A stretch of DNA of 64,000 nucleotides. It comes from Sphingobacteriales bacterium. Lineage in GTDB: Bacteria; Bacteroidota; Bacteroidia; Chitinophagales; CAIOSU01. Shown here in pieces: positions 8,841 to 43,866 of this stretch. The notes below the pieces were generated by a model, which was not told the origin of the DNA, made no database searches, and saw only the letters and a program-made list of their open reading frames with translations. Positions within the stretch are counted from its first letter, which is position 1. Each line of letters opens with the position of its first letter. The position numbers and the translations under genes were made by a program. The stretch spans positions 124,001-188,000 of the forward strand of contig JAIXUD010000022.1 of assembly GCA_027483645.1 (NCBI GenBank), written 5' to 3'.

Positions 8841-8872
8841 GTTACTGGTTTCGAGTTACGAGTTACGGGTTG
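8839..8872. repeat. Heptamer repeat, family B, at the 3' end of proS
   Basis: Five 7-bp units can be read (GAGTTAC-TGGTTTC-GAGTTAC-GAGTTAC-GGGTTGA), starting inside the proS TGA stop codon. Confidence 0.8.
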
Positions 8873-8891
8873 ACTTTGAAATTTATAAGAT

Positions 8892-8924
8892 ACAGCCTCT
8901 AACGAAAGTTGGAGGCTGTTTTTG
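8892..8924 (+). terminator. Terminator of proS
   Basis: ACAGCCTC (8892-8899) pairs with GAGGCTGT (8912-8919), and AAC pairs with GTT around a GAAA tetraloop; TTTTTG follows. Confidence 0.8.
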
Positions 8925-8988
8925 TTTCTAGTATACATTATTACCTCATTTCTATTTACCCCCATCTTTCCCTAACTTCAACCTCCAA

Positions 8989-11214
8989 ATGATTGGCATG
9001 AGGGTTACAGGCATTATTACCATCTTATTATTGCTAATATGGTCGGGCACTTGGGCACAAAGCGTAAAGTTGGAATGGGCTGGGCATAATACTGGCTCGG
9101 GCCAAAGCAGCGCCGTGGATATTGCCGTAAGCGATTCAGGCTTTGTATATGTGGTGGGCTACTTTACCGATACGGTAGACCTTGACCCTGGGGCAGCTAC
9201 GCTTACCACTATCTCGGCAGGTGCTAAAGATATTTTCGTACAAAAGCTTTCGCCCAGCGGCAGTTTGGTTTGGGCAAAACGTATTGGCGGCACTGGCAAC
9301 GATGAGGTAAAAGCCATTGCGGTGGATAGGCTAGGCAATGCGTTTTTGACGGGTTCCTTTAGCGGTGCTGTCGATTTTAATCCTGGTGCGGCAACCAATA
9401 ACCTTACATCAGCAGGCGGCACTGATATTTTTGTACAAAAGCTTTCTGCCGCCGGAAATTACCTTTGGGCATATAAAATAGGTGGTATTAGCAACGATGT
9501 GGGCCGAGATATTGCAATAGATGCAGTGGGTGCGGCCTATATTACGGGCACTTTTATTGGAACGGTTAATTTCAACCCTGGTGGTACGGCGGTAAACTTT
9601 ACATCTGCCAGCCCCAATTTCCCAGATTTTTTTGTCTTGAAGATTAGCGCTACTCCAGCATATGTTTGGGTTAAAAAAGTTGGCGGTACTGGTTTTGATG
9701 AGTCATTTGCCATTACAGTGGATCAGCTTGGTAGCGTATATACCACTGGCAATTTTAGTGCATTCGCCGATTTTAACCCCGATGCTGGCGTTGATACGCT
9801 ATTTGCCCAGCCAAGTAGGGATGTATTTATACTGAAATTGAACGCAAATGGCAGTTACGGCTGGGCCAAACAGTTGAACGGTAGTTTATTCGCCTCACAA
9901 GGCAATGATATTGCCGTGGATGCGGCGCGCAACTTATACGTAACCGGTCAATTTATATCGAGAGTGGATTTTGACCCAGGACCAGATTCTGTGTTCTTAA
10001 CCCCGGCTGGTGGTAGCGATCCTTTTGTATTGAAGCTAGATTCTTTGGGAGCCTATGTTTGGGCACGCAACTTTACCGGCATAGCCAGTGGGCAAGGGGC
10101 AGCTTTGGCTATAGATTCGGTCGGTTCTGTTTATACAACAGGCTTCTTTTCTGCCACGTTTGATTTTGACCCAGGTGCCGATAACTATAACCTCACAACA
10201 GGCGGCCAGGCAACTGATGTGTACATAAGCAAACTAGACTCAAGTGGGCAGTTTATTTGGGCGCGCAATGTTGGCCATGCAGGCAACGACGCTGGCGAAG
10301 CCATAGCAGTGGATACTTTAGGCAATGTGTACTTTGCCGGCAGCTTTGTAGATACGGTCGATTTTGACCCTACCATAGGCGCTACCGAACTTATTGGTGC
10401 GGATTCGGCCACTACGTTTATTGCCAAATGGAACCCGTGCGAGCCAACTTTTGCTACGCTGGATACCGCTGCTTGCTACGCCTTTACTTCAGCAAGCGGG
10501 CTGGTATATGATTCTTCTGGAGTATATAGGGAGGCACTGCTAAATGCATCGGGCTGCGATAGCTTTATCGTTATCAACCTTACTATAAATGATACGGCAA
10601 GGCAAACCTTGGTGCAAACCTCTTGCGGTAGCTATCAATTGAACGGGCAAACTTATGACAGCACCGGCGTTTATACTCAATTGTTTACCAGTTTCAGTGG
10701 CTGTGATAGCGTTTTGACACTTGAGCTTATTGTTAATGCCAATGTGCAGGCTGATGTTACCCAATCGGGCGACACGCTCCTGGCTACCGCTGTTTCGGGC
10801 ATAACCTACCAGTGGCTTGATTGCAACAACGGCCTCGACACAATAGCCGGTGCCGATGGCGCTACGTTTATTCCCACTGCAAGCGGCGACTACGCCCTAG
10901 CGGTAAATGCCAATGGCTGTGGCGATACTTCGGCATGCTTTACCATAACCATTGTTGGTACCGAGGAGGCATTTGGCGAGCGATTTGCTTTATATCCTAA
11001 CCCAAGCAATGGTAAGTTTACCATAGTTTTGGGTAGCTTTTACCCTGAGCTTGGTGTAACGGTTTCTAACCTAGCGGGGCAAACTATTTGGGCCGCTAAT
11101 TATCAAAACCAAAGCAGTTTAGAGGTTGATTTGGATATCCCTGCCGGTTTATATCTGATAACTATTGTTGATGGAGCAGGCAATAGGCAAGTGCTTCGTA
11201 TCGCTAAAGATTAA
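8989..11214 (+). CDS. T9SS-secreted protein with SBBP-type beta-propeller repeats
   Basis: A 741-residue exported protein. Signal peptide residues 1-23; then seven repeats of about 57-60 residues, each carrying a variant of DFDPGA (VDLDPGA, VDFNPGA, VNFNPGG, ADFNPDA, VDFDPGP, FDFDPGA, VDFDPTI), consistent with a seven-bladed SBBP propeller. Next come two Cys-containing modules about 75 residues apart (SGCDSFIVINLTI, SGCDSVLTLELIV) and an Ig-like segment. The end is a type A sorting domain (LYPNPSNGKFTI to GLYLITIVDGAGNRQVLRI) that directs export by T9SS and attachment to the surface. Ligand unknown. A -7-like TAACTTCA ends only 8 nt before the ATG. Confidence 0.85.
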   Translation: MIGMRVTGIITILLLLIWSGTWAQSVKLEWAGHNTGSGQSSAVDIAVSDSGFVYVVGYFTDTVDLDPGAATLTTISAGAKDIFVQKLSPSGSLVWAKRIGGTGNDEVKAIAVDRLGNAFLTGSFSGAVDFNPGAATNNLTSAGGTDIFVQKLSAAGNYLWAYKIGGISNDVGRDIAIDAVGAAYITGTFIGTVNFNPGGTAVNFTSASPNFPDFFVLKISATPAYVWVKKVGGTGFDESFAITVDQLGSVYTTGNFSAFADFNPDAGVDTLFAQPSRDVFILKLNANGSYGWAKQLNGSLFASQGNDIAVDAARNLYVTGQFISRVDFDPGPDSVFLTPAGGSDPFVLKLDSLGAYVWARNFTGIASGQGAALAIDSVGSVYTTGFFSATFDFDPGADNYNLTTGGQATDVYISKLDSSGQFIWARNVGHAGNDAGEAIAVDTLGNVYFAGSFVDTVDFDPTIGATELIGADSATTFIAKWNPCEPTFATLDTAACYAFTSASGLVYDSSGVYREALLNASGCDSFIVINLTINDTARQTLVQTSCGSYQLNGQTYDSTGVYTQLFTSFSGCDSVLTLELIVNANVQADVTQSGDTLLATAVSGITYQWLDCNNGLDTIAGADGATFIPTASGDYALAVNANGCGDTSACFTITIVGTEEAFGERFALYPNPSNGKFTIVLGSFYPELGVTVSNLAGQTIWAANYQNQSSLEVDLDIPAGLYLITIVDGAGNRQVLRIAKD

Positions 11215-19470: not shown

Positions 19471-20598
19471 CTACTTAAACGGGTCGCTAAACCGCGGGTC
19501 GGTTACAAACTCGTTATCGGTAAGGGTCATTAAGAAAGCGATAAGGTCAAGCTTTTCTTGAGGGGTGAGTTGTACTCCGCCCTGAAAAGCAAATTCCATA
19601 CCCCCAGCATCAATATTGGCCGTTTGGTGCACGCCCGTGCTATAAAAATCTACCACCTCTTCCAAAGTAGCAAAGCGCCCATCGTGCATATAAGGTGCTG
19701 TAAAAGCTAAGTTTCGTAAAGAAGGTACTTTAAACTTTCCGAAATCGGTGACAATTCCAGTGGCTTCACCCAAGCCCTTATCTACATACTCAACAGCAGT
19801 GGCAAAAGAATCCAACCCATTATTGCGAAACTGTAACGACGGGCTAAGCTCTTGGAAAACTTGATTGCCGTTGGGGGTGCCATGGCAATGAAAGCAATCA
19901 GCACCATCTTGCGATATGAACAACTCCAATCCTCTGCGCTCTTGATCGGTAAGCTCCCCAAAACCGGTAACTGCTTCGTCAAATTTACTCCTACCTGACA
20001 CTAGAGTAAACATAAATTGCGCCAAAGCCTTTCCCGCATGCTCCTTGGTTATATCTTCGGGCTCCACACCAAATGCTTCGTAAAAAAACTTAGGATAGTC
20101 TTTGTGCGCTTGTAGTTTTATGATGTTTTCAGGCCAATAAGCGTGCATCTCCAACGGGTCTTCAACTGGTATAAGGGCTTGTTCAGCCAAATCTGTTGCA
20201 CGGCCATCCCAAAAAAACCGGCTGCTATATACCAAGTTGAACAGCGGCATGGCATGGCGCTTACCCTGCAAACCATCAATACCCAAACTCAAAATCCTGT
20301 TATCGGAAAAGGCATTCTCTTGTTTATGGCAACCGGCACAGGCCAAGGTGCTATCGCCACTCAGAATGGGGTCATAAAATAACATTCTACCCAGTTGCAC
20401 CCCCTGTGTGGTAAGTGGGTTGCTAGCAGGGAAAGTAGCTGGTGGAAAGTTGCGCGGTATCTCCACGGTGTAAGCTTGCGGATTGTATACCCAGCCCCTG
20501 TCGTTTTTGGTTCCGTCATCATCATCAGGTTCTTTTCCACAACCTGACATGATTGCAACTAGTACAATTAATGGTAGTATATATCGTAGTGCTTTCAT
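19471..20598 (-). CDS. MauG/MbnH-like diheme cytochrome c peroxidase, lipoprotein (copy 1)
   Basis: A 375-residue periplasmic or surface lipoprotein (lipobox AIMSGC, Cys20). Two c-haem sites: CAGCH (87-91) followed by KQENAFSD, and CFHCH (235-239). The end has the family motif FKVPSLRNLAFTAPYMHDGRFATLEEVVDFY, seen here as VPSLRNLAFTAPYMHDGRF. Members reduce peroxide or oxidise protein residues; the MauG-like MbnH converts a tryptophan of its partner MbnP to kynurenine. Last gene of a cluster that also holds a second peroxidase and two MbnP proteins. Whether it acts on MbnP or as a plain peroxidase cannot be told from sequence. Confidence 0.85.
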   Translation of the reverse strand: MKALRYILPLIVLVAIMSGCGKEPDDDDGTKNDRGWVYNPQAYTVEIPRNFPPATFPASNPLTTQGVQLGRMLFYDPILSGDSTLACAGCHKQENAFSDNRILSLGIDGLQGKRHAMPLFNLVYSSRFFWDGRATDLAEQALIPVEDPLEMHAYWPENIIKLQAHKDYPKFFYEAFGVEPEDITKEHAGKALAQFMFTLVSGRSKFDEAVTGFGELTDQERRGLELFISQDGADCFHCHGTPNGNQVFQELSPSLQFRNNGLDSFATAVEYVDKGLGEATGIVTDFGKFKVPSLRNLAFTAPYMHDGRFATLEEVVDFYSTGVHQTANIDAGGMEFAFQGGVQLTPQEKLDLIAFLMTLTDNEFVTDPRFSDPFK

Positions 20599-20610
20599 TT
20601 AAAGTTTAGT

Positions 20611-20642
20611 TTCGAGTTGCGAGTTACGGGTTACGAGTTATC
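20611..20642. repeat. Heptamer repeat, family B
   Basis: Units GAGTTGC-GAGTTAC-GGGTTAC-GAGTTAT, just upstream of the peroxidase gene at 20598; it faces an inverted copy at 20700-20726. Confidence 0.75.
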
Positions 20643-20699
20643 TTCTAACTAGCAATCTATATTCCCTCCACTTATTGATACAATTTAATGTTTCCATTT

Positions 20700-20726
20700 C
20701 TAACTCGCAACTTTTAACCCGCAACC
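20700..20726. repeat. Heptamer repeat, family B, inverted copy
   Basis: The reverse strand reads GGTTGC-GGGTTAA-AAGTTGC-GAGTTAG. Together with 20611-20642 it could fold a long stem between the two peroxidase genes. Confidence 0.7.
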
Positions 20727-20729
20727 GCA

Positions 20730-21752
20730 TTATTCCGCAAATGCCGCATTGGTTGTAAATTCATAATCGCTCAAGGCGTTTAAAAATTCCAATAAGTCGC
20801 TTTTCTCTTGGGCTGTTAGGTTTAATGGTTTTATCCTTTCATCTTTCTGAGGGTTGTTTGCCCCGCCGCTATTGTAATGCTCCACCACTTGGGCTAAACT
20901 GGCTATGCTGCCATCATGCATGTATGGGGCCGTAAGTGCAACATTCCGCAACGAAGGCACCTTAAACTTGTCCCGATCAGCTTCCACCGCCGTTACCCTT
21001 ATCCTACCCGAATCTGCATAAACCTCAGCCAAACCATTATTCTTAAAGCTGTAATCGGTAAAATTAAACCCGCCGTGGCAGCCAGAGCAGCTCAACCGCT
21101 CGCTTTGGAACAATGCCAAGCCACGCTTCGCCGATTCATTTAGTGCGCTACTTTGCCCGTTATTGTATTGATCATAAGCACTGTTGCCCGAAACCAAGGT
21201 ACGCTCGAAAGCCCCCAAGGCCCTTGTTAACACAAAAGCATCAAACTCCCTGTTGTAGGCTATCCGGGCCATTTCCTGATATCGAGGGTTTTGCGCCAAC
21301 CGCTCCACCGCCAGCGGAAAATCATGGTCCATCTCGTTCACATCCTGCACCGGTGCCAGCACTTGCAGCTCAAGTGTAGGTACCCCGCCATCAAAAAAAT
21401 AATAAGGATGATAACCCAAATTGAATAATGGCGGGCTATTTCTCATCCCTTTTCTGCCTTCAATACCGCTGCTTATTGCGATCACATCACTAAAAGCATT
21501 GGTTTGAAGGTGGCACGAGCCGCAAGAAACAGTACTATCGCGAGACATGCCTTTATCAAAGAACAGCATTTTGCCCAATTCGACCCGTTTTACCGTAAGC
21601 TCATTTCCTACTGGCACCGGCATTGGCGGGAAACCAACTGGCAAATTGAGTTCATAAGGCGCATCCAACGGCTCTAGTTCATCTTTGCCACAGCCCGTTG
21701 CAAGCAATGCCGTAATAAGGCATATCCCTATGAATACCTTGGTTTTACCCAT
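20730..21752 (-). CDS. MauG/MbnH-like diheme cytochrome c peroxidase, lipoprotein (copy 2)
   Basis: A 340-residue paralogue of the gene at 19471: lipobox LLATGC (Cys21), haem sites CGSCH (77-81, followed by LQTNAFSD) and CSGCH (222-226), and FKVPSLRNVALTAPYMHDGS near the end. It starts 6 nt after the stop of the MbnP-like gene at 21759, so the two are almost certainly cotranscribed. That adjacency is the arrangement of the mbnP-mbnH pair of methanotrophs, supporting a role in oxidising or maturing the MbnP-like partner (inference). Confidence 0.87.
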   Translation of the reverse strand: MGKTKVFIGICLITALLATGCGKDELEPLDAPYELNLPVGFPPMPVPVGNELTVKRVELGKMLFFDKGMSRDSTVSCGSCHLQTNAFSDVIAISSGIEGRKGMRNSPPLFNLGYHPYYFFDGGVPTLELQVLAPVQDVNEMDHDFPLAVERLAQNPRYQEMARIAYNREFDAFVLTRALGAFERTLVSGNSAYDQYNNGQSSALNESAKRGLALFQSERLSCSGCHGGFNFTDYSFKNNGLAEVYADSGRIRVTAVEADRDKFKVPSLRNVALTAPYMHDGSIASLAQVVEHYNSGGANNPQKDERIKPLNLTAQEKSDLLEFLNALSDYEFTTNAAFAE

Positions 21753-21758
21753 ACCCTA

Positions 21759-22547
21759 TTACGGGTTTGAAAGGCTAAATGCCCTTATGAAATTCTCGGT
21801 AAAATCTTCTGCCAATTGATAGTTACTGGTGCTATGGGTTATCGCTCCCATGTTTCGGCTAATATCCCTTGAGCCGTATAGTGCCCTGTTTAGGTCTAAA
21901 TCCAGGTTATACGTGTAGCTATCACCTTCGCCTACGCTAAATGGCACACTTGCCGCACCCAATACCGCTTCGCGATACAGTGTGTTAAGACCAGTGTGAT
22001 AATTAAAGAACGACGTAGTTGCAACAGGCCCTGGCGTATTGGCTAACGTATCATAATAGCCTTCTAGCATTACAAATCGGTAACCACTATTCCAGGTCCA
22101 GAAAGTACCCTGAAATGCACTTAACGGGTGATCTTGCGCATAGGTGGCCGGGTCGCTAGCGTTCTGCGCACTATCCAATCCAATCCAAAACCTAACACCT
22201 GTATAGTTACCGGCAGGTATGGCGGCCTCAATAGTAAGCGGTTCGCCCGAAGCTAAGCCCTCCAAGCTTAACAAGGCAACATCCTTTATCTCGAGTTCGC
22301 CACTATCGGTTAACAAAGTAAGGTGCGATACATAAAACCGAAACAGCGTGGGCATGATGCGATAGCTGTCTTCATCTAAATACTCTTGGTTAAGCACCAT
22401 TGGCTGGTTGCCTACTTTTGGGTATATGTTGAAGGTAATACTACTCGGGTCTGGCTCGATAATCAACTCCGGGTCTTTTTCACATGAAGAAGCCATTATT
22501 ACCCAAACTAGCATGGGTACCAGTAGACGTAGATAGCGCATAAACAC
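21759..22547 (-). CDS. MbnP-like lipoprotein (copy 1)
   Basis: A 262-residue lipoprotein (lipobox IMASSC, Cys22). The family pattern is clear: an N-terminal beta-sandwich strand SSITFNIYPKVGN, RIMPTLFRFYVSHLTLL, IPAGNYTGVRFWIGLDSAQN and the signature FWTWNSGYRFVMLEG (Trp150 and Trp152). MbnP of methanotrophs is a periplasmic copper-binding protein whose tryptophan is modified to kynurenine by the diheme enzyme MbnH. Here the neighbouring gene encodes such an enzyme. Copper binding is inferred from the family. Confidence 0.8.
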   Translation of the reverse strand: MFMRYLRLLVPMLVWVIMASSCEKDPELIIEPDPSSITFNIYPKVGNQPMVLNQEYLDEDSYRIMPTLFRFYVSHLTLLTDSGELEIKDVALLSLEGLASGEPLTIEAAIPAGNYTGVRFWIGLDSAQNASDPATYAQDHPLSAFQGTFWTWNSGYRFVMLEGYYDTLANTPGPVATTSFFNYHTGLNTLYREAVLGAASVPFSVGEGDSYTYNLDLDLNRALYGSRDISRNMGAITHSTSNYQLAEDFTENFIRAFSLSNP

Positions 22548-22572
22548 AATTATTTATGATAAAACAGGAAAA

Positions 22573-22657
22573 CAGTGCATTTGGTTGCACTGGGTGTTTA
22601 AACCAATTGCATTATACCGCTAGAAACAGTTTTCTTAATACTGTTTCCAGCGGTATA
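22573..22657. promoter_or_regulatory. Two hairpins between the MbnP-like genes
   Basis: CAGTGCA/TGCACTG (22573-22579 with 22586-22592) and a longer stem in which TATACCGCT and GAAACAG (22613-22629) pair with CTGTTTC and AGCGGTATA (22641-22657) apart from one mismatch. There is no T-run, so these look like processing or stability elements that could set the ratio of the two products, not a terminator. Confidence 0.5.
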
Positions 22658-22671
22658 TTTTGCAAATGGAA

Positions 22672-23433
22672 TTACTCCGCAGTGAATGCTGAGCTGTAAT
22701 TCGTTTTTACCCTGGTAGCCAAATCCATATTGTTCATGGTCATCGTGATCACATCGGCACCGCCCAAGTCCACATTCGAGAATAAGGCAGCGGTATTGAG
22801 GTACACGTTGATGTTCGGATGGCTTCCTTCGCTCACCTGTTTGTCGATGTCAATCGACACGGTAGACAGGTATGAATCGGTGCCCACATGGAAAATCCAA
22901 GGGCCATCAACCGTACCGTTAGGCGTGGCGTTGGTATCTACCAAACCTTCCGCCATAAAGAAAATGTAGCCTGAGTTCCAGCTCCAGAACATGCCCGAAT
23001 TATTGGTTGGCGACAAATCCGATTCAGCATCCAACAAGCTAGGGTCGCCGTGGTTGGTTACGGAATCCACGCCAACATCGAATTTCAATTGTGTGTAATG
23101 GCCAGTAGGTAATTCTTCCATTTCAAGCTCGTTTACCCCATTGGTTTTAACCAATAAATATTCCCCAGAGAATGGTACTTCATTACCATCATGGCCTACC
23201 AACCTTACATTCGAAACATAGTACTGCACTTTGTTAATCCTAAAATCACGGTTGTTAGTTCCGGTTTTTACAGCGTTGGTATCCAACGCTTCGGTAAGGC
23301 CATAGCGGTTGTTAAAGTAAATATGCATGTGCCCTGTACCATCATGGTCGTGGTCTTTTTCGCAGCTGGTAGTAGATACGATAGCTACAAAGGCAAAAAG
23401 TAATAGTGATAAGTTGTTTATGATAGATTTCAT
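22672..23433 (-). CDS. MbnP-like lipoprotein (copy 2) with a His-rich N-terminus
   Basis: A 253-residue lipoprotein (lipobox STTSC, Cys24). Right after the lipidated Cys comes a metal-binding-like stretch EKDHDHDGTGHMH. The MbnP pattern follows: FRINKVQYYVSNVRLV, LPTGHYTQLKFDVGVDSV and the signature MFWSWNSGYIFFMAEG, with Trp150 and Trp152 at the same residue numbers as in copy 1. The His cluster suggests a second copper site, which is inference. The start overlaps the stop of the upstream outer-membrane gene by 4 nt. Confidence 0.82.
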   Translation of the reverse strand: MKSIINNLSLLLFAFVAIVSTTSCEKDHDHDGTGHMHIYFNNRYGLTEALDTNAVKTGTNNRDFRINKVQYYVSNVRLVGHDGNEVPFSGEYLLVKTNGVNELEMEELPTGHYTQLKFDVGVDSVTNHGDPSLLDAESDLSPTNNSGMFWSWNSGYIFFMAEGLVDTNATPNGTVDGPWIFHVGTDSYLSTVSIDIDKQVSEGSHPNINVYLNTAALFSNVDLGGADVITMTMNNMDLATRVKTNYSSAFTAE

Positions 23434-24485
23434 AGTTCTTGTTCTTTTGAGTTTGTTGAATTGTTTGATTTTTTTGAATTAAACGCATATTTGGCCCCTA
23501 CTTGGAAACCCGATACATTGCCGAATTGTTCGTTCACCACAATCCTTTGTGCCAGCGGATGCCTCCACAGGCAGTTGAGCCCCCAGTTACCTTTAAATAA
23601 ATCAAGCCCTACCGTACCAAAGAGAAAGAGCCCGCCCGTAGGGCCTTCAGGCACCGCGGCGGTGGTTTGATTGCTTCCGGCATGTTCTAGCCACAAGCCT
23701 GTGCTAGGCGCAATGGCTAGCCGCTTAAACTCCTTAAACCAAAAACCACGCAAATCGGCATTGAGGCTATTGGCAAAGCGATAGCCCAACTTGTTGGCGG
23801 TATTTACTTTATAGGTAACCATGGCGGTTGCACCCCAGCTCTTCGAACGGATGATGTAGTTGGTAGTGGCAATAAAATCGACACTGCCGCTGCCATTTTG
23901 CAAATCGGGGCGCAGCATTTCGTCGTATCCTATTTTCTGAAAACTGCCCGTAGGCAACTTCACACCTACCCCAACCACTAAGCGTTGCTGTAGTTTTTTG
24001 CTTACCAAGCGCTTGCCTTCGCTTAGGGCTTGGTATTGGGTAAGCAAAACTACATCGCCCAAGCCTTGATGCTGCTCTAGCTTACGGCCATCGCGATATT
24101 GGTTATCCTCGCTACACAGCAGCTTAGCCGTTAAAGGCACTATAGCCATAAGGCTCCACTTAGGGTGCACGTAGTAAGTGCCCCGTACATCGGTAGTGGT
24201 TTGTATTTGTCGGTATCGGGTCTCTACCTGTGGCTCGGTATGCACGTGTCCATCGTCCTGTTTTTTCGGGCCGGCTATATAATCCATCAAGGACTCGTGA
24301 AGCGTGGCGCTAAAAAAGCGGCTTTGTTGCTGTATACCAATGGAGTGCTGGCCGTTGTTGAGTTGCAATTCAGCATTGAATATGCTCAAGTTGGCACTAC
24401 ATCCGTCGCAGGCATAAACTCCCCTTACCGTTGCGGCCACCAATAGCATTACTAGCCACAGGCGACACAACATATTTGTGTTCAT
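23430..24485 (-). CDS. Outer-membrane beta-barrel protein of the MbnP cluster
   Basis: A 351-residue protein with a signal peptide ending about residue 25 (RGVYA) followed by CDGCSANL, a CxxC pair at the mature N-terminus. The rest alternates in amphipathic strands (GDVVLLTQYQALSEGKR, RLVVGVGVKLPTGSFQKIGY, FQVGAKYAF), as in transporter-like barrel proteins. A His-containing loop, DDGHVHTEPQ, sits near residue 80. Its place in the operon suggests passage or sensing of copper across the outer membrane; this is inference. Confidence 0.65.
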   Translation of the reverse strand: MNTNMLCRLWLVMLLVAATVRGVYACDGCSANLSIFNAELQLNNGQHSIGIQQQSRFFSATLHESLMDYIAGPKKQDDGHVHTEPQVETRYRQIQTTTDVRGTYYVHPKWSLMAIVPLTAKLLCSEDNQYRDGRKLEQHQGLGDVVLLTQYQALSEGKRLVSKKLQQRLVVGVGVKLPTGSFQKIGYDEMLRPDLQNGSGSVDFIATTNYIIRSKSWGATAMVTYKVNTANKLGYRFANSLNADLRGFWFKEFKRLAIAPSTGLWLEHAGSNQTTAAVPEGPTGGLFLFGTVGLDLFKGNWGLNCLWRHPLAQRIVVNEQFGNVSGFQVGAKYAFNSKKSNNSTNSKEQEL

Positions 24486-24525
24486 TGAAGGAATTTAGGC
24501 TTACAAAATGGTTATTCCATTTACA

Positions 24526-24882
24526 TTAAGCCAAGTAGCACGGCGGATGCGGCTGTGGGGTAGTATTGTATTGGGTAAAAAACGATTGGTAGTAAGCCGC
24601 AGGTGCTGCGGTAGTTTCTATAGTTGGTTCGCTTATAACAACCATGGGTACTTCATATACCCAAGTGATGCTTTGCTGCACGGTAAGCAAGTTGCTTTTT
24701 GGGGTATTGTCGGTTTGTTTTTGGAATTGCTTTTTTAGATAACACTTACCGTTACACTGCAAATCTGGTGCCGTGCGGTTCTCGCACAAGGTGCGGGCAA
24801 TAAAGCTTTGATTAACCTGAAAGTTAAGGAAAACAGCAGTATATGCCCCGGAGTGGAACAAAATAGCTACTAAAGCTACCAT
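24526..24882 (-). CDS. Small membrane protein with CENR and CNGKC motifs
   Basis: A 118-residue protein: one N-terminal hydrophobic segment (MVALVAILFHSGAY), then NFQVNQSFIARTLCENR, LQCNGKCYLKKQF and a C-terminal PPCYLA. The paired LCENR/CNGKCYLKK motifs define a small Bacteroidota family usually found beside metal-related outer-membrane genes; two cysteines four apart could bind copper or form a disulfide. First gene of the MbnP cluster. A -7 element at 24911-24918 rules out the GTG at 24930; a TTG start near 24906 remains possible and would add a Lys-rich leader. Confidence 0.65.
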   Translation of the reverse strand: MVALVAILFHSGAYTAVFLNFQVNQSFIARTLCENRTAPDLQCNGKCYLKKQFQKQTDNTPKSNLLTVQQSITWVYEVPMVVISEPTIETTAAPAAYYQSFFTQYNTTPQPHPPCYLA

Positions 24883-24910
24883 GCTGAATAGGTACTTAAT
24901 GGTTTTCAAG

Positions 24911-24918
24911 CAAAAGTA
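24911..24918 (-). promoter_or_regulatory. -7 element of the MbnP/peroxidase cluster
   Basis: TACTTTTG on the minus strand, a perfect TAnnTTTG, 29 nt before the chosen ATG. Confidence 0.5.
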
Positions 24919-24957
24919 AATATAGTACACTATTGTTTAAATTTCATAATACTGAAC

Positions 24958-24991
24958 ATAAAAATGCCCATCAGTTTCGCTAATGGGCATT
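24958..24991 (-). terminator. Terminator of glyA
   Basis: ATGCCCAT/ATGGGCAT stem with an 11-nt loop, followed on the minus strand by TTTTATG, 24 nt after the glyA stop. Confidence 0.7.
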
Positions 24992-25014: not shown

Positions 25015-26307
25015 TCAATGCAGCACCCCTTCACTCGCATATAGCGGGAAACGCTTGGCCAATGCATGTACCTCTGCTTTCACCGCAGCTATTACGGCTT
25101 CGTCGTCAGGGTTCATGATCAGGCGGTCAATCAGGTCAATGATTTGTACCATCTCGCGTTCTTTCATGCCGCGGGTGGTAATGGCCGGAGTACCGATGCG
25201 GATACCAGAGGTAACAAACGGCGAACGGTCGTCGAAAGGCACCATGTTCTTGTTCACGGTTATTTCTGCTTTGCCTAGGGTTTGCTCTGCTTTTTTGCCG
25301 CTAATGTCTTTGTTGTGTAGGTCAATAAGCATTAGGTGGTTGTCCGTTCCACCGCTGATGATGTGGTAGCCACGTTTCACCAATTCCTTAGCCATAGCTT
25401 GCGCATTGGCAACTACTTGGCGACAATATTGGCGGTAGTCTTCAGTCAATGCCTCGCCGAAAGCGATGGCTTTACCTGCAATTACATGCTCTAGCGGTCC
25501 ACCTTGCGTACCAGGGAACACCGCGCCATCCATTATTGATGACATCATGCGTACCTCGCCTTTTGGCGTGGTCAACCCAAATGGGTTTTCAAAGTCTTTG
25601 CCCATCAATATCAATCCACCACGCGGCCCACGAAGGGTTTTGTGTGTGGTGGTAGTTACTACATGGCAGTGGGGGATGGGGCTATCCAATAGTTTTGCCG
25701 CAATCAGCCCTGCAGGGTGCGCCATATCGGCAAGCAAGAAGGCACCTACCTTATCGGCAATAGCGCGGAAACGGGCATACTCCCACTCTCGTGAGTAGGC
25801 CGATGCACCGCAGATAATCAGTTTCGGCTTGGCTTCAATGGCAATGGCTTCCACTTTATCCATATCTATACGGCCGGTCTCTTTCTCCACACCATAGAAG
25901 TGTGGGCTATATAGTTTGCCCGAAAAGTTTACCGATGAGCCGTGCGTTAAGTGCCCGCCATGCGAAAGGTCGAAACCCAAGATGCTGTCGCCCGGCTGAA
26001 GCAAGGCTAGCATTACGGCAGCGTTGGCCTGTGCGCCACTGTGCGGCTGCACGTTGGCATACTCGGCACCATATAGTTCTTTAGCTCGGTCTATGGCCAA
26101 TGTTTCCACCTCATCCACAAACTCGCAACCGCCATAGTAGCGGCGACCCGGATACCCTTCGGCGTATTTATTGGTAAACACACTGCCCATGGCCTCCATT
26201 ACCTGTTGACTGGTAAAGTTTTCGCTGGCTATAAGCTCTAGTCCGTTTTGCTGGCGCAGTTTTTCCTTCGCTATCCATGCAAATACTACTTCATCTCTGG
26301 GTATCAT
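25015..26307 (-). CDS. glyA: Serine hydroxymethyltransferase
   Basis: A PLP enzyme that interconverts serine and glycine and loads tetrahydrofolate with one-carbon units. All family marks are present: [35 protein letters not shown] shown here as [12 protein letters not shown] and [13 protein letters not shown], the substrate loop [12 protein letters not shown], the PLP-binding [16 protein letters not shown] with Lys223, and [11 protein letters not shown]. The length of 430 residues is typical. Monocistronic, with its own terminator. Confidence 0.97.
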
Positions 26308-29700: not shown

Positions 29701-31074
29701 ATGAACGTTTACAGATATTCCTTCTTTACCTTCTTACTAATCGTTGCCCTACTTGTACCATCAAGCGTTGCCGTATATGGCCAAGCCTCTGAGCAAGTAC
29801 TGGCTGGTGAGAAGATTTTTAAAGCCAAGTGTGCAAGTTGCCACAAGTTAGGTACCAAACTTATTGGCCCTGCGCTTACCGGCGTAGAGCAACGTTGGGT
29901 TGATGGTGCAGAACATGCTGGTGTAAGCGGCCGTGACTGGCTGAAGCGCTGGATTAAAAACTGGCAAGACCCAGTGAAAGCTGGTGTTGGCTATGCTGTT
30001 ACCATGCAAAGCTACGATGTGTCTGCTATGACCCAGTTTCCAGAATTGCAAGATGCTGATTTGGAAAACATCCTGGCATATATAGCTAACCCGCCTGCCG
30101 ACGTAGTACCAGTAACTACTGCCGCTACCGCTGATGGTGGTGCAGATACTGGAAGTAACAACACCTACTGGCTAATCGGTTTGGTAGTTATTTTGGGTAT
30201 AATTGTAATTGGCTTAACCATTGTATCGGGCAGTTTGAACCGCTTGGTACTAGAAAAAGAAGGTGAGCCAATTCCGGCAGCAGTACCTTTCTGGAAAAAC
30301 AGGAAACTGCGCGCTGTAGTAACTTTGATAGTAGTTATCTACCTTTCTAATGCTGTTGTAGTTGGAGCTATTGATTTGGGCCGCCAACAAGGTTATACCC
30401 CAATCCAACCGATTAAGTTCTCTCACGAGTTGCACGCTGGAATCAACAAAATCAATTGCGAATATTGCCACACTGGTGCTGCAGTTAGCAAGCACTCCAA
30501 CATACCTTCGATAAGCACCTGTATGAATTGCCACAAAGGCATTAAAGGTGATGACCCAAAAAACGGGAAATACGGTAAATTGGAGATTTCTAAAATTTAC
30601 GCTGCTGTTGGTTTCAACCCAATTGATGGTAATTATTTCGAAAACTACGTTGCCCAGCCAAAATCTTACATCGATAGCATCTTTACCATTTGGTTGAGCG
30701 ATAGCAAACCTGTTGCTAGCAAAAAAAATGTTGAAGAAGTATTAGCCCAAGTTCAACAGCCTGTTGAGTGGGTAAGGATACACAACCTGCCCGACCACGT
30801 TTACTTTAACCACGCGCAGCACGTAACTGCCGGTGGCGTAGAGTGCCAAACTTGCCACGGCCCAGTTGAAACGATGGAAGAACTTGGCCAGCACTCGCCG
30901 TTATCTATGGGCTGGTGTATCAATTGCCACCGCGAAACAGAGGTGAAATTCAGCGAAAATCCTTTCTACGAGACTTACCAAGTGTTCCATGACCGCATTA
31001 AGGCTGAAGAAATGGATCCGAAAGTAACCGTAGAGAAGATTGGTGGCACCGAGTGCCAAAAGTGCCACTATTAA
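29701..31074 (+). CDS. actA: Alternative complex III multihaem cytochrome c, ActA with fused monohaem domain
   Basis: Part of the quinol:electron-acceptor oxidoreductase ActA-F. A 457-residue protein with a signal peptide, then a class I cytochrome c domain (CASCH 44-48), two membrane segments (about 157-177 and 205-223), and a C-terminal five-haem region with CEYCH (253-257), CMNCH (274-278), CQTCH (382-386), CINCH (406-410) and CQKCH (452-456). Total six CXXCH motifs; the Rhodothermus ActA prototype is described with five. The extra N-terminal domain may help electron exit to the oxidase (inference). First gene of the operon. Confidence 0.93.
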   Translation: MNVYRYSFFTFLLIVALLVPSSVAVYGQASEQVLAGEKIFKAKCASCHKLGTKLIGPALTGVEQRWVDGAEHAGVSGRDWLKRWIKNWQDPVKAGVGYAVTMQSYDVSAMTQFPELQDADLENILAYIANPPADVVPVTTAATADGGADTGSNNTYWLIGLVVILGIIVIGLTIVSGSLNRLVLEKEGEPIPAAVPFWKNRKLRAVVTLIVVIYLSNAVVVGAIDLGRQQGYTPIQPIKFSHELHAGINKINCEYCHTGAAVSKHSNIPSISTCMNCHKGIKGDDPKNGKYGKLEISKIYAAVGFNPIDGNYFENYVAQPKSYIDSIFTIWLSDSKPVASKKNVEEVLAQVQQPVEWVRIHNLPDHVYFNHAQHVTAGGVECQTCHGPVETMEELGQHSPLSMGWCINCHRETEVKFSENPFYETYQVFHDRIKAEEMDPKVTVEKIGGTECQKCHY

Positions 31075-31101
31075 TTTAAGCATCACTAGAATCATCATAT
31101 A

Positions 31102-34100
31102 ATGGCTGAACAACAATTTTGGAAGGGTTTGGACGAGAAGTTCCAAGACTCGGAGTTCATGCAGCAAACCGGTAAGGAGTTCCCAGAGGAATTACCTGGA
31201 TTCGGTGCGAAATTACAAGAGGCCAATACCAGCCGTCGCGACTTTTTGAAAGTGCTAGGCTTTAGTGTTGGTGCAGCTACTATTGCCGCAGGTTGCGAAA
31301 TGCCCGTTCGTAAGTCTATTCCTTATCTCGTAAAGCCAGATGAGATTACGCCAGGTATTGCCAACTACTATGCCTCTTCGTATGTAGATGGTGGCAAGTA
31401 TTGCAGCATTTTGGTTAAAACCCGTGAAGGTCGCCCTATAAAAATTGAGGGTAACAACCTTTCAAAAATCACTTACGGTGGTACCGATGCAGGCGCACAA
31501 GCTTCAGTATTGAGCTTGTATGACAGCTACCGCCCAAAAGGCCCAGTGGCAATGACCAAAGCCACTACTTGGGGCGAATTGGACAAAGCCGTCTACGACA
31601 AATTACAAGCCATTAAAGCAGCCGGTGGTGCTATCCGCATCGTTGCTGCTACCATCATTAGCCCTTCTTTGAAAGCTGCTATTGCCAAGTTTACCGAGCA
31701 ATATCCTACTACCGAGTTGGTACAGCACGATGCAGTATCATACAGCGGTTTGCTGGATGCCAACGAGTTAAGCTTCGGCAAGCGCGTGGTGCCAAACTAT
31801 CGTTTCGAGAAAGCTAAGGTAATAGTTAGTTTGGGTGCCGATTTCCTTGGAACTTGGATAAGCCCAACGGAATACGCTTACAACTATGCTATCAACCGCA
31901 AAGTGAGTAAAGACAATCCGAAGATGTCTCGCCACTACCAAATTGAGTCTTACGCAAGTTTGACTGGTTTGAATGCTGACGTGCGCGTACCAGTAAAACC
32001 ATCAGAAGAAACTGCCGCTGCCATTACCCTTTATAACTTAGTAGCTGCCAAAACTGGTGGTTCGTCCATTAGTGGTGGTAAACTGGAAAGCAAATACATC
32101 GCCAGCATTGAAGCTGCTGCTGCCGACCTAGTTGGTGCCAAAGGCGCTTCGTTGGTTATCAGTGGCTCAAACGATGTAAACGTACAGTTGATTGTAAATG
32201 CCCTGAACCAATTGCTTGGGAACTACGGCACTACCATTGACATGGTAGAATACAGCAACCTACGCCAAGGCAACGATACCCAGTACAATAAATTGGTGGC
32301 CGACGTTATCGCCGGTACCGTGAAGGGTTTATTCTTGCTAAACTCTAACCCGGCGTACAATTTGCCAAAGGCAGATGAGTTTATCGAAGCCCTTAAAAAG
32401 GTGGAATTGACCGTATCGCTCAACGACAAGAAGGCTGAATCGGAGACTTTGTGCCAATATTTGGCTCCCGACCACCACTTCTTGGAGAGCTGGGGCGATG
32501 CAGAGCCACGTAATGGCCATATAAGCATCATCCAACCTACTATCGACCCATTGTTTAATACCCGTGCCGCTGGCGAAAGCTTGTTGAAATTTGCTGGTAT
32601 TGACAAAACATACTACGACTTCGTAAGGGAGAATTGGAATGCCAACATCTTCGGCAAACAATCAGGATTGACCACCTTTGGTAACTTCTGGGACCGTGCC
32701 GTGCACGATGGCGTGTTCACTTACACCCCAACCGGTGCTGCCCCTGCTGCTGTAGGTGCCCCTGTTACCGAAGGCACCCCAACGCTTGCTGGTGGCGCTA
32801 TTGATGTAGCCGCTGCTGGTGCTGCCGCTTTGGCAAACGTAAAAACTGGCGGAATTGAGGTAGTGGTTTATGAGAAAACCGCTATTGGCGACGGTAAAGA
32901 TGCTGATAACCCTTGGTTGCAAGAGTTGCCAGATCCGGTATCTAAAATCACTTGGGACAACTACGCTTGCGTATCCCTAGCTTTTGCCGAAGCCAATAAA
33001 CTTGACTTTACTGCCGACCGTACTAGAAAGAGCTACGGCCGCACGGTACAAACTATTAAGATAAGTGCCAACGGATATGAAGTGGAGTTGCCTGTGCACA
33101 TTCAGCCAGGTATGCCTGATAATACCATCGCTATTGCCCTAGGGTATGGCCGTGAAGTGGTTGGCAAAACTGGTGAAGTAGGGGAGAACGCTTACCCTTT
33201 CATTACCAACTACAAGAATGGTGGACAGAGGCGTTATTCGGTTGATGCTACCTTTACTGAGACTGGCAAAGACTATAAATTGGCACAAACGCAGACCCAC
33301 TTCAGTGTGAGTGATGGTTTGAACCAACGTGGTATTGTAAAAACAACCACCCTTGATGCTTACGCAGCTAACCCTGCTGCTGGCAACCATGACCGTGCAC
33401 ACGTAAAGGATCACTTGTTCACCTTGTACGGCTACCACGAATTCCCTGGCCACAAATGGGGAATGGGTATTGACTTGAATTCTTGCTTTGGTTGCGGCGC
33501 TTGCGTAGTAGCTTGTAATGCAGAGAACAACATACCAGTAGTAGGCAAGAAAGAGGTAACCTTGTCCCGCGAGATGCACTGGTTGCGTATTGACCGTTAC
33601 TACTTCGGCGATGTGGAGAATCCATCAGCGGTATTCCAGCCGATGATGTGCCAACATTGCGAAAATGCCCCTTGCGAAAACGTTTGCCCAGTATCAGCTA
33701 CCAACCACAGCTCTGAAGGCTTGAACCAAATGGCCTACAACCGTTGTATCGGTACACGCTACTGCGCCAACAACTGTCCATATAAAGTACGTCGTTTCAA
33801 CTGGTTCGATTACTGGGGTGCTGATAGCTTTACGCTTACCGGTGCGTTGGAAAACAACTACGACCCTCATGAAATGAGCCAAGACCTTACCCGCATGGTG
33901 TTGAACCCTGATGTAACGGTTCGCTCACGTGGGGTAATGGAGAAATGCTCTTTCTGCGTACAGCGTATACAAGAAGGTAAATTGACTGCCAAGAAAGAAG
34001 GCCGTAAACTGAAAGATGGTGACATCAAAACAGCTTGCCAAGCGGCTTGCGTAACTGGTGCCATCGTATTCGGAGATGTGAATAATCCCGAAACTGAGGT

Positions 34101-34332
34101 TTCAATTATTGGCAACGATGAGCGTGGTTTCAAGGTGATTGAAGAGATACACACCTTGCCGTCTGTTACTTACCTTACGAAAGTGCGCAACATTTCGGAT
34201 ACGGAGCAGCTGAAAGCAGTAAATTTGTTAAGCGATAACGCTATAGATGTACCAGGCCAAGTAGACCACCACAGCGGTGCGCACCATGGCGAGGCACATA
34301 CCGATAGCACCCACGTTGAAGAACATCATTAA
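31102..34332 (+). CDS. actB: Alternative complex III iron-sulfur protein ActB
   Basis: A 1076-residue subunit resembling a fusion of a molybdopterin-oxidoreductase-like domain (which in ACIII lacks the cofactor) and an NrfC-like ferredoxin domain. A twin-arginine signal, [12 protein letters not shown] (Arg45-Arg46), precedes a lipobox-like AAGC (Cys65). Fe-S ligands: Cys795/798/801/805 ([11 protein letters not shown]), then [22 protein letters not shown] and CSFC with ACQAAC. A His-rich tail ([11 protein letters not shown]) ends the protein. It sits 27 nt after actA. Confidence 0.95.
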
Positions 34333-34355
34333 TAGGATATAACAGAATATAAGAG

Positions 34356-35813
34356 ATGGCATCTTACGAATCACCCATACGCGAACCGTTAATTCTTGGA
34401 GACAAGAATTACAAGCAAATAACCACGGACATCGTGAGGAGCACCGAAGGTGTACCGCCGAAGCTATGGTTTTTGGCCATAACCATCGCTGGTTCTTTGG
34501 CTGCGTTTTACTTTTTTTGCGTGGCATGGACAGTATACTACGGTATCGGTGTTTGGAACCTAAACAAAACCGTAGGTTGGGCTTATGACATTACCAACTT
34601 CGTTTGGTGGGTAGGTATCGGCCACGCAGGTACGCTTATTTCTGCGGTGTTGTTGCTGTTCCGTCAAAAGTGGCGTACTGGTATCAACCGCGCAGCTGAG
34701 GCTATGACCATTTTTGCGGTAATATGTGCCGCCCAGTTCCCTGGTATACACATGGGGCGTCCATGGATGGCATTCTTTATATTTCCTTATCCCAACTCAC
34801 GCGGCCCACTTTGGCCAAACTTTCAAAGCCCACTGATGTGGGACGTATTTGCGATTTCGACTTACTTTACCGTTTCGCTTTTATTCTGGTACTCAGGTTT
34901 GTTGCCCGATTTTGCAACCATCCGTGACCGCTCGAAAGGTAAAATACGTAAGGCTATCTACAACGCTTTGAGCTTCGGCTGGCGTGGAGAGGCTAAACAC
35001 TGGCAACGCTTCGAATCTTTGGCCCTTATTTTGGCCGGTATTTCTACCCCACTAGTACTTTCAGTACATACAATTGTATCTTTTGACTTTGCTACATCTG
35101 TTATCCCTGGCTGGCACACCACCATCTTCCCTCCATACTTCGTTGCAGGTGCCATCTTCTCTGGTTTCGCGATGGTATTAACTTTGATGCTTATTACCCG
35201 TAAGGTATTGAAACTGGAAGATTACATTACCATTGCGCACATCGAGGCGATGAACAAGATTATTCTCCTTACCGGCTCTATAGTAGGTATTGCTTACATC
35301 ACTGAGTTGTTTATGGCTTGGTACTCTGGCTTTATCTATGAGTGGTTTGCCTTCTACAACCGCGCATTGGGCCCTATGGCTTGGGCATACTGGATTATGA
35401 TGACTTGTAATGTGATCAGTCCGCAATTCTTCTGGATCAAAAACCTACGTCGCAACCTTTACCTTACGTTCTTCCTATCTATCACCGTAAACATCGGTAT
35501 GTGGTTTGAGCGATTTGTAATTATTGTGACTTCTTTATACCGCGATTATTTGCCATCAAGCTGGGTTGATTACTACCCTAGCTGGGTTGAGGTGGGTATC
35601 TATGTTGGTACTATCGGCTTGTTCTTTACCTTATTCCTACTGTTTGCTCGTGGGTTCCCGGTAATAGCTATCGCCGAGGTTAAGTCAATTTTGAAATCAT
35701 CAGGTAGCCAAGCTCGTGTAAAGCAGAAAGCGAAAGATGAGGCTACTGCAAAAGGTGGGTATAGCGAAGGCCTTGACTTGTCAGGTGCCCACCATGATGT
35801 TAAAGAAAACTAA
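34356..35813 (+). CDS. actC: Alternative complex III membrane subunit ActC (NrfD-like)
   Basis: A 485-residue integral membrane protein of the NrfD/PsrC family, with about ten transmembrane helices, starting after a soluble N-terminal segment (residues 1-45). Conserved stretches include FVWWVGIGHAGTLISAVLLL, HMGRPW and PNSRGPLWPNFQSPLMWDVFAI, shown in part. In the solved complexes ActC carries the quinol-binding side next to ActB. A charged C-terminal extension (QARVKQKAKDEATAKGG) follows the last helix. Operon spacing of 23 nt. Confidence 0.95.
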   Translation: MASYESPIREPLILGDKNYKQITTDIVRSTEGVPPKLWFLAITIAGSLAAFYFFCVAWTVYYGIGVWNLNKTVGWAYDITNFVWWVGIGHAGTLISAVLLLFRQKWRTGINRAAEAMTIFAVICAAQFPGIHMGRPWMAFFIFPYPNSRGPLWPNFQSPLMWDVFAISTYFTVSLLFWYSGLLPDFATIRDRSKGKIRKAIYNALSFGWRGEAKHWQRFESLALILAGISTPLVLSVHTIVSFDFATSVIPGWHTTIFPPYFVAGAIFSGFAMVLTLMLITRKVLKLEDYITIAHIEAMNKIILLTGSIVGIAYITELFMAWYSGFIYEWFAFYNRALGPMAWAYWIMMTCNVISPQFFWIKNLRRNLYLTFFLSITVNIGMWFERFVIIVTSLYRDYLPSSWVDYYPSWVEVGIYVGTIGLFFTLFLLFARGFPVIAIAEVKSILKSSGSQARVKQKAKDEATAKGGYSEGLDLSGAHHDVKEN

Positions 35814-35834
35814 TAACGAAATAACCTACACCCA

Positions 35835-36371
35835 ATGGATAAATACATAGTAGGATTGTACGATGATGAGGAAGTGTTGCTTACCGCTGTAAAGAAGGTA
35901 AAGCAGGCAGGTTTCCACATTCATGAAGTGGTTACGCCATTTCCGGTGCATGGTTTGGATGACGCGCTAGGTTTAAAGCCAAGCCGCCTCCATACCGTTG
36001 GTTTCGCTGGTGGTGCCACGGGGTTGACTATTGCCCTTTCTTTCATGATTTGGGCTACAGCGGTAGATTATCCCATTATTTATGGTGGTAAGCCATTCCT
36101 ATCATTGCCATCTTATATCCCTATCACGTTTGAGTTTACGGTATTGCTTACCGCAATCTCCATGGTAGTTGCGTTCTTTATCCGTTGTGGCCTATCAATT
36201 TCCGCTAAGCCAAAGATTTATGACGAACGTACCACCGATTACCTTTTTGGCTTGGCCATTAAAGTAACTGCTGATACTAGCCAAGACGACTATGCACGTA
36301 TAAATGAAACCTTTACCAATACAGGTGTAGCGGAAATCAAAGTTCGCGACTTTGATGATGATAAAAAATAA
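35835..36371 (+). CDS. actD: Alternative complex III subunit ActD (DUF3341)
   Basis: A 178-residue DUF3341 protein with two central membrane helices (about 56-77 and 96-116) between cytoplasmic domains. The start, DKYIVGLYDDEEVLLTAV, and FPVHGLDDALGLKPSRL are typical. ActD is a structural subunit without cofactors that packs against ActC. The gene lies 21 nt after actC. Confidence 0.93.
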   Translation: MDKYIVGLYDDEEVLLTAVKKVKQAGFHIHEVVTPFPVHGLDDALGLKPSRLHTVGFAGGATGLTIALSFMIWATAVDYPIIYGGKPFLSLPSYIPITFEFTVLLTAISMVVAFFIRCGLSISAKPKIYDERTTDYLFGLAIKVTADTSQDDYARINETFTNTGVAEIKVRDFDDDKK

Positions 36372-36395
36372 TTGAAAGATAACCACAGGGTTGAC

Positions 36396-37100: not shown

Positions 37101-37151
37101 TAAGCGACGAGCGAAAGTCCATCCAAAAAACTCTAAACAGCGCATTTAGCA

Positions 37152-38390: not shown

Positions 38391-38399
38391 CAGTACGCA

Positions 38400-39518: not shown

Positions 39519-39529
39519 ATTTTATTACA

Positions 39530-41413: not shown

Positions 41414-41492
41414 TTTTTGATAAGGTACGGTGTACAATAGCAGATCGTAAGAATACTAATAACTTATAACAAATAACCAGTAACTAAACAAA

Positions 41493-43009: not shown

Positions 43010-43023
43010 ACCACTTACCATAA

Positions 43024-43854: not shown

Positions 43855-43866
43855 AAAAATACGATA

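Follow-up and report, generated by a model that had tools for sequence, protein, structure and literature searches.

Why does a bacterium of the phylum Bacteroidota carry, side by side, two genes for MbnP-like lipoproteins and two for dihaem MbnH-like enzymes, and what would such a set of genes produce? Only a few proteins, most of them from methanotrophs, are known to use protein-derived kynurenine in a copper site, and the question is raised here by a 64,000-nucleotide stretch of a Sphingobacteriales bacterium (assembly GCA_027483645.1, contig JAIXUD010000022.1, positions 124,001 to 188,000), which we call the window and for which an earlier note made from the DNA letters had described a doubled MbnP/MbnH-like copper cluster. 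Six co-directional minus-strand genes span 24930-19471 in the order leader, barrel, MbnP1, MbnP2, MbnHa and MbnHb, with products of 134, 351, 253, 262, 340 and 375 amino acids (aa), and the open reading frame (ORF) coordinates confirm the places that had been given to them. The intergenic distances in operon order are 40, -4, 124, 6 and 131 nucleotides (nt), and 614 nt separate the operon from the next gene. An identical gene order was found in 4/4 same-genus genomes searched (the contig of G001 starts within the barrel gene), so that the doubling is real and conserved; it is not unique to the window, however, but a feature of the genus and family. Judging from the sequence comparisons described below, it is likely that these genes form a copper-acquisition or copper-homeostasis operon that builds kynurenine-type copper proteins. 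The protein families involved are known, and their arrangement, the unequal pair of enzymes and the leader look like new variations.

MbnP1 and MbnP2 carry a predicted kynurenine-type copper site

The two lipoproteins that had been called MbnP-like belong to the MbnP family both by profile and by predicted fold. MbnP1 (22672..23433, on the minus strand like every operon feature given below), which contains the His patch DHDHDGTGHMH, matches PF20243 (MbnP) with 141 bits (E 5.5e-41) and MbnP2 (21759..22547) with 114.4 bits (E 7.9e-33), the curated cut-off being 27 bits. The closest structure is 7l6g, which we take to be that of Methylosinus trichosporium OB3b MbnP. The predicted model of MbnP1 (pLDDT 91.3) superimposes on 7l6g_D over 203 residues with a Z of 16.7 and a root-mean-square deviation of 2.9 A, and that of MbnP2 (pLDDT 81.9) over 207 residues with a Z of 15.5 and a deviation of 3.9 A; the next-best structural match for either model has a Z of 6.9. 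A profile built from 35 MbnPs found 7l6g as its single PDB sequence (E 2.6e-9), in a match that ends in GCM.

In the alignment, FWSWNSG of MbnP1 falls on AWNWQAG of 7l6g and His182 of MbnP1 (codon 22888..22890), a predicted copper ligand, falls on a 7l6g His. The Trp residues of MbnP1 (W150-S-W152, codons 22978..22986) and MbnP2 (W150-T-W152, codons 22092..22100) share alignment columns, as the earlier note had implied by their equal residue numbers, but that equality of number depends on the GTG start of MbnP2, which has an ATG two codons later. The predicted ligand His184 of MbnP2 (21996..21998) shares the column of MbnP1 His182, and in the column where MbnPs of cyanobacteria and proteobacteria have the Met of GCM the alignment places Met231 of MbnP1 (22741..22743), the predicted second ligand, and His238 of MbnP2 (21834..21836). 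Manesis et al. are said to have reported in 2021 that in MbnP the first of the two WxW Trp residues is converted to kynurenine and that a His and a Met bind Cu(I). W150, the predicted kynurenine precursor, fits this modified position because the first Trp is conserved more strongly than the second (W in 93/100 versus 70/100 MbnPs). These counts are quoted from MbnPs of the window's own genome and 60 relatives' genomes, taken as the places recovered as ORFs of at least 200 aa, since a further set of loci (L109-L188, the 80 top-ranking tblastn matches out of at least 552) was found with a pattern that itself requires W-x-W; loci L069-L108 were chosen by hand from tandem and top-scoring places. 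Among the same 100 proteins the His182/184 column holds His in 88, the next ligand column His in 60 and Met in 20, and both Trp residues and the His occur together in 64. The check by structure prediction and alignment that had been proposed for this cluster therefore yields a fold matching 7l6g and, at the position reportedly modified in MbnP, W150 in both proteins.

Same-genus MbnP1s carry either His or Met in the ligand column, and the residue changes about 14 times on the tree, so that the ligand switch is not fixed to the paralogue, and the notion of Met-type and His-type MbnPs as fixed paralogues is weakened by this mix. Within the genus, 5/5 first MbnP1 copies, the window's own among them, have the His patch, and both second P1 copies lack it.

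MbnHa and MbnHb are MbnH-like enzymes of two ancient clades

Both peroxidases, MbnHa (20730..21752) and MbnHb (19471..20598), are diheme MauG-type enzymes, as had been claimed. They match Pfam CCP_MauG with E-values of 1.7e-48 and 4.9e-52 and each have exactly two CxxCH, at 77/222 and 87/235. The best family for both is TIGR04039, the MbnH family (279.2 bits for MbnHb and 269.8 for MbnHa), and the MauG profile TIGR03791 gives 163 and 213 bits for the two enzymes, with its cut-off of 443.85 not reached. The best PDB match of both (E 9.2e-66 and 9.3e-48) is 6e1c, presumably M. trichosporium MbnH.

Whether the peroxidases group with CcpA had been set as a check, and they do not. The axial ligand is Tyr293 in MbnHa and Tyr319 in MbnHb, with no CcpA-type axial Met in either; over 152 aligned sequences this position is Tyr in 148 and Met only in 3 CcpA references, with one gap. 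In a reference tree with 4 MbnP-linked, 2 MauG and 3 CcpA references, from which a distant 680-aa peroxidase of locus L113 was left out, the window enzymes fall with the MbnP-linked MbnHs, inside the MbnH rows and outside both CcpA and MauG (SH-aLRT 86 and 94 on the separating forks). On axial Tyr and tree position, a reading as ordinary CcpA peroxidases is rejected. Because the Trp aligns as W150 and the axial residue is Tyr, the earlier note's proposal stands at both of the points where it had declared itself vulnerable. In a larger MbnH tree of 209 rows, from an ORF set that kept MbnPs of 200 aa or more and MbnHs of 280-560 aa (L113 being excluded by length), a deep fork divides clade A, to which MbnHa belongs (41 rows, SH-aLRT 98), from its sister side, clade B, which holds MbnHb (156 rows, SH-aLRT 99). 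By this deep fork between their sequences the two enzymes are ancient paralogues, and a recent tandem duplication is ruled out as they stand on either side of it.

Several other MbnH-like proteins were seen along the way. The clade-A enzymes of L254, L256, L257 and L258 have His for the axial Tyr and Phe for the inter-haem Trp. Elsewhere in the window's own genome (contig C4, L082:7430-8497 and 8497-9429) an orphan MbnH-like enzyme adjoins a non-MbnP protein with a sorting-tail-like end, which is possibly another MbnH substrate. In the named plasmids L189, L190 and L195 the MbnH-like dihaem protein beside MbnP is labelled "methanobactin export MATE transporter MbnM"; this label occurs in 3/4 MbnP records opened, on proteins that have two CxxCH, and is probably a naming error.

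The two enzymes differ at the inter-haem position

The residues W93, P107, E113 and Y294 of MauG, which we take to be precursor positions W113, P127, E133 and Y314 minus 20, define the columns that matter here. In these columns MbnHa has F120 (codon 21393..21395), P134, E140 and Y293, and MbnHb has W130 (codon 20209..20211), P144, E150 and Y319. A like difference recurs at nearly every locus that has both clades: the inter-haem Trp is found in A at 1/24 and in B at 24/24 of the A+B loci (1/18 and 18/18 when only the own genome and relatives are counted), with clade A showing Arg at 8, Phe at 5, Ser at 4, Lys at 3, Met at 3 and Trp at 1 of them. The difference between A and B at this position is therefore systematic. 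When the other clade is absent, the Trp is present in 9/16 A and 110/123 B. Throughout clade A the haem motifs are conserved, as are the residues equivalent to MauG E113 and P107 (41/41 each).

Loss of the Trp in A is associated with presence of B at a raw Fisher value of 0.0006, but the Trp state changes only about 3 times on the tree and the independent pairs number 1-5; the link is thus only suggestive and we do not claim it as independent evidence. Among the A-alone loci 7/15 also lack the Trp. In this test the locus L223, at a contig end, was left out, and L237 was counted as A+B here only, since the ORF caller, a simple longest-first rule, had missed its MbnP. Excerpts of the BthA study describe the inter-haem Trp as present in MauG, where it is required (Trp93), and in the bCCPs characterised earlier, and they describe BthA as having Ser at this position and yet forming bis-Fe(IV) (PMC6405878). 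Loss of the Trp need not, therefore, be loss of function, and A may have a role of its own beside B.

Pairing of MbnPs with MbnHs

The company that each MbnP keeps was counted over the 71 MbnH-bearing loci of the own genome and the genomes of 60 relatives, and over 150 such loci overall, with MbnHs more than 4 kb from an MbnP left out. Among the 71, a P1-clade MbnP is accompanied by A in 21/22 loci, and A occurs in 8/49 loci where P1 is absent (Fisher 1.5e-10); loci with P1 and P2 hold A and B in 7/7, and P2-only loci hold B in 14/14 and A in 2/14. Over all 150 loci the figures are 28/31 for P1 with A, 12/119 for A without P1 and 8/8 for P1 and P2 with A and B (Fisher 9.8e-18), both Fisher values being too strong as kinship is uncorrected. 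MbnP and MbnH distances at 108 single-pair loci give a Mantel r of 0.86, which 0/999 permutations equalled, and Pearson correlations of distance profiles are 0.55 versus 0.36 for P1 with Ha and 0.50 versus 0.33 for P2 with Hb. At the level of sequence this suggests P1-A and P2-B pairs, with MbnP1-MbnHa and MbnP2-MbnHb the likeliest cognate pairs.

A and B nonetheless stand with a single MbnP in 15/24 A+B loci (P1-A-B in 8, P1-B-A in 1 and P2-A-B in 6), and the number of enzymes is therefore not a simple mirror of the number of substrates. The implication of the earlier note that two enzymes simply serve two substrates is not supported as it stands, given this count and the missing inter-haem Trp of MbnHa. 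Since A and B usually serve one MbnP and only B keeps the Trp, the pattern points to A also acting jointly with B.

A leader gene with an invariant C-terminal Pro-Pro

The first gene of the operon, the leader (24526..24930), has an N-terminal hydrophobic segment, C49, C59-x-G-x-C63 and H-P-P four residues before its C-terminal end, and we propose that it is a copper-sensing upstream ORF. Its motif reads C-x9-C-x-G-x-C, in which the C59-N-G-K-C63 codons (24742..24756) would encode the copper-binding motif, and the Pro129-Pro130 codons (24541..24546) are the proposed site of ribosome arrest. C49, C59, C63, P129 and P130 are invariant in 77/77 relatives. All 87 leader relatives have C-x-[GAS]-x-C together with a Pro-Pro 1-11 residues (median 3) from the end, and 55-80 residues (median 66, interquartile range 65-68) lie between the last Cys and the Pro-Pro. 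As a control, only 21/473 other 100-180 aa ORFs in the same loci have Pro-Pro in their last 13 residues. The earlier note had taken this gene for a Cys-motif membrane protein; the Cys motif and the export-type N-terminus are there, but its likely regulatory role, indicated by its place at the operon head and the invariant Pro-Pro, had been missed.

No Pfam family matches the leader, and PF11162 (DUF2946) gives no match at E up to 1. By analogy, the leader resembles the copper-sensing leaders CutF and CruR; excerpts of one source state that many CutF-like proteins are from Bacteroidota (PMC9973294). That small exported proteins can arrest at motifs close to their C-terminus is established for RAPP and RGPP in excerpts of another (PMC12992588), a precedent that covers these motifs and not the HPP of the leader.

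The leader was found at 83/174 MbnP loci, and its profile marks 31 places in 26/40 relatives' genomes. Eleven places are away from or several kb from an MbnP, and of the ten that gave a leader ORF, five are followed by genes for a YtkA-like lipoprotein and a TonB-type receptor, one by a TonB receptor gene and four by a CDxC-type barrel gene (as second gene at L302). Profile searches covered all five lipoproteins and four of the five receptors of the YtkA-TonB operons; TIGR01778 (TonB-copper) was the best model for the L292 receptor, at 139 bits with the cut-off of 472 not reached, and the second for that of L297.

In the window, a terminator-like 12-pair stem with a T tail (24963..24991, minus strand, from a pattern scan only) separates the leader from the preceding gene, which is serine hydroxymethyltransferase-like (25015-26307, named from sequence alone), and for this reason a separate transcription unit probably begins with the leader. 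The promoter and terminator pattern scans gave counts no higher than in shuffles. By a crude ORF count, only 39/87 leader relatives have the 150 nt upstream of them free of same-strand ORFs.

The barrel gene and its surroundings

The second gene (23430..24485) encodes an outer-membrane beta-barrel-like protein of a Phenol_MetA_deg-like superfamily; PF13557 is matched by 2/12 aligned barrel members, at best with 1.4e-8. It had been described as an outer-membrane protein starting with CDGC. It is barrel-like and has CDGC, but the motif lies at residues 26-29, after a signal-like stretch and so near the mature N-terminus. In the CDxC(G)C motif of the aligned barrels, C26 is kept in 63/66 and C29 in 62/66. 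On the opposite strand, roughly 5 kb away from the copper operon, the window also holds an Alternative complex III-like and cytochrome oxidase cluster (29701-45479; NrfD, cytochromes c, COX1, COX2, COX3 and SCO1).

Copper context and distribution

The records of other bacteria place MbnP beside copper genes. A Paracoccus seriniphilus record has MbnP, an MbnH-like protein, a copper uptake-associated protein, PCu(A)C and two SCO; a Deinococcus radiodurans record has MbnP, a peroxidase, a hypothetical protein, CopC and CopD; and an Ideonella record has DUF2946, MbnP, an MbnH-like protein and a TonB receptor. Near 14 MbnP loci lies a protein cluster of which the representative that was tested is SCO1/SenC. 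MbnP is present in 52/60 relatives' genomes and in 78/296 genomes sampled across the phylum (where the DNA of nine regions and of G163 was examined), and a large part of the kynurenine-type copper proteins may therefore lie in Bacteroidota. Tandem MbnPs occur in 9/60 relatives among the listed places and in all four same-genus genomes, two of which have three copies. We found no paper on paired MbnHs, on MbnPs with sorting tails or on the leader in Bacteroidota, which is a weak negative, since most subscription papers lay outside the literature searched.

Further MbnPs deserve mention in their own right. A third MbnP of the window's own genome (contig C2, L081:8200-9246) has WxW and the predicted ligands, stands without a neighbouring MbnH and has at its C-terminus a sorting tail for type IX secretion (PF18962, TIGR04183); it is perhaps a secreted or surface version that is finished in trans. 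The tail is also present in the same-genus relatives L210, L211, L213 and L222, and further tailed MbnPs were seen at L220, L228, L234, L240, L242, L245 and L080, several of them in P1-A-B loci. Judged by eye, 12/15 MbnPs of at least 310 aa have such a tail, and profile searches support those tested, marginally for L228 and L242. Another protein cluster recurs near MbnP-MbnH pairs at 13 loci (L084, L085 and 11 others); the member of it that was tested combines a YHYH domain (PF14240) with a sorting tail. At L078 and L079 a second MbnP-like protein lacking WxW and the ligands stands beside an intact MbnP.

Proposed working of the operon and its alternatives

We propose that the leader would be translated first and that, under copper scarcity, its C-terminal HPP would slow or arrest the ribosome and so allow the rest of the operon to be expressed. 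Copper on the leader CxGxC would change this arrest, in one direction or the other, by analogy with CutF and CruR. The barrel may let copper species or other small solutes through the outer membrane. MbnP1 and MbnP2 would be exported lipoproteins in which W150 is oxidised to kynurenine, forming a Cu(I) site with His182/184 and with Met231 or His238 as the predicted residues. MbnHa and MbnHb, as two ancient and non-redundant lineages, would be the oxidants.

Several observations weigh against this account. MbnP1 and MbnP2 score 66.8 and 45.8 bits with the NCBI equivalog TIGR04052 (MbnP_like_WxW), under its cut-off of 140, and both enzymes fall under the TIGR04039 equivalog cut-off of 362.85 bits. 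The operon itself holds no copper transporter of known family. The Spearman correlation for P1 slightly favours Hb (0.42) over Ha (0.39), and P1-only loci hold both A and B in 9/15 relatives' loci, so that strict pairing fails. For the leader, hhalign against a DUF2946 protein gives a probability of 0.4%, that is, no sequence homology, and DUF2946 is absent from 30/30 relatives' genomes searched; together with the PF11162 result, homology to DUF2946 is not supported. A conserved RNA structure after the leader is likewise unsupported, since the fold across the leader end has a z of -3.9 in the window and z < -3 was found in 2/15 loci.

How the two enzymes divide the work admits more than one answer. 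It is quite possible, if short of probable, that two MbnP-MbnH modules have merged into orthogonal pairs in which MbnHa finishes only MbnP1 and MbnHb only MbnP2, giving copper sites of His/Met and His/His type for different copper levels or redox states. The co-occurrence of P1 with A, of both MbnPs with both enzymes and of P2 alone without A (12/14) speaks for such pairs, as do the Pearson profiles and the contrast of Met231 with His238; the single MbnP at most A+B loci, the Spearman result and the presence of His or Met in P1 within one genus speak against them. An arrangement in which B, with its inter-haem Trp, does most of the oxidation and A is a partner for a second oxidation step, electron relay or substrate docking is also possible, though we would lean against it. 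It would account for the Trp being confined almost wholly to B at A+B loci and more frequent in A when B is absent, for the retained haem motifs, E113 and P107 equivalents of A, and for two enzymes beside one MbnP. Its weakness is that the association with B rests on few changes and is not statistically independent, that many A-alone loci also lack the Trp, and that BthA, in the excerpts of PMC6405878, still forms bis-Fe(IV) without it. That the enzymes are ordinary H2O2-detoxifying CcpAs which happen to adjoin MbnP-like proteins is highly improbable: the CCP_MauG domain is common to all of these enzymes, but the axial Tyr in place of Met, a tree position outside CcpA and the co-divergence with MbnP all argue otherwise.

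The leader could instead be a structural, membrane-bound copper-binding protein, a chaperone and not a regulator, as its invariant Cys and export-type N-terminus would allow. We think this unlikely given that it stands first in the window operon, that it also heads operons without MbnP and that its Pro-Pro, which sets it apart from other small ORFs, follows the arrest-peptide pattern of the excerpted source (PMC12992588). Within the reading of a kynurenine-type copper operon, a fuller proposal for Bacteroidota, which we regard as quite unlikely, would have A and B acting together as an unequal pair, with B a conventional MbnH that retains the inter-haem Trp and A, having lost it, providing a distinct step or relay, to make two copper sites of different ligand sets in one operon set by a copper-sensing, ribosome-arresting leader outside DUF2946. 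Whichever division of labour applies, the role of the inter-haem Trp in protein oxidation, a question that BthA leaves open in the excerpts of its description (PMC6405878), could be tested on this naturally occurring A/B pair, and the leader would allow a cheap reporter test of nascent-chain copper sensing outside DUF2946.

Comparison with known systems

The window operon shares with MbnP and MbnH of M. trichosporium OB3b the MbnP fold, the WxW, the His ligand, a dihaem MbnH-like enzyme with a Tyr ligand and the adjacency of the genes. It differs in that no methanobactin genes were seen beside it, in that its MbnPs are lipoproteins without the four-Cys pattern, and in having two MbnPs, two unequal MbnHs and leader and barrel genes, with scores under the NCBI equivalog cut-offs. 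MopE/CorA with SACCP/CorB is similar in having a MauG-like neighbour and a copper site of two His and kynurenine, according to excerpts of its descriptions (PMC3423442, PMC3912023), and the predicted His/His/Kyn set of MbnP2 resembles these ligands when compared by ligand set and not by sequence. Excerpts of a further source describe MopE/CorA as not markedly similar to MbnP (PMC3621798), and MopE/CorA are secreted or surface proteins whereas the window MbnPs are lipoprotein-like.

MauG of Paracoccus and BthA of Burkholderia are comparable to the window enzymes in their Tyr-His haem and, as proposed for the window enzymes, in protein or bis-Fe(IV) chemistry, and BthA, like MbnHa, lacks the inter-haem Trp, with Ser where MbnHa has Phe (excerpts of PMC6405878; BthA is not in our alignment). 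MauG acts on methylamine dehydrogenase and lies outside the MbnH rows of the tree. The leader differs from CutF and CruR in not being DUF2946 by profile, in having HPP and not RAPP, in a spacing of about 66 and not 45 residues and in the 40-nt gap that follows it in the window. As excerpts of the CutF and CruR papers present them, these leaders, first genes of copper operons as it probably is in the window, nevertheless share with it an export-type N-terminus, a Cys motif, a C-terminal Pro-Pro and a conserved spacing, and CruR operons include MbnPH-like and copper-receptor genes (PMC9973294, PMC9426467).

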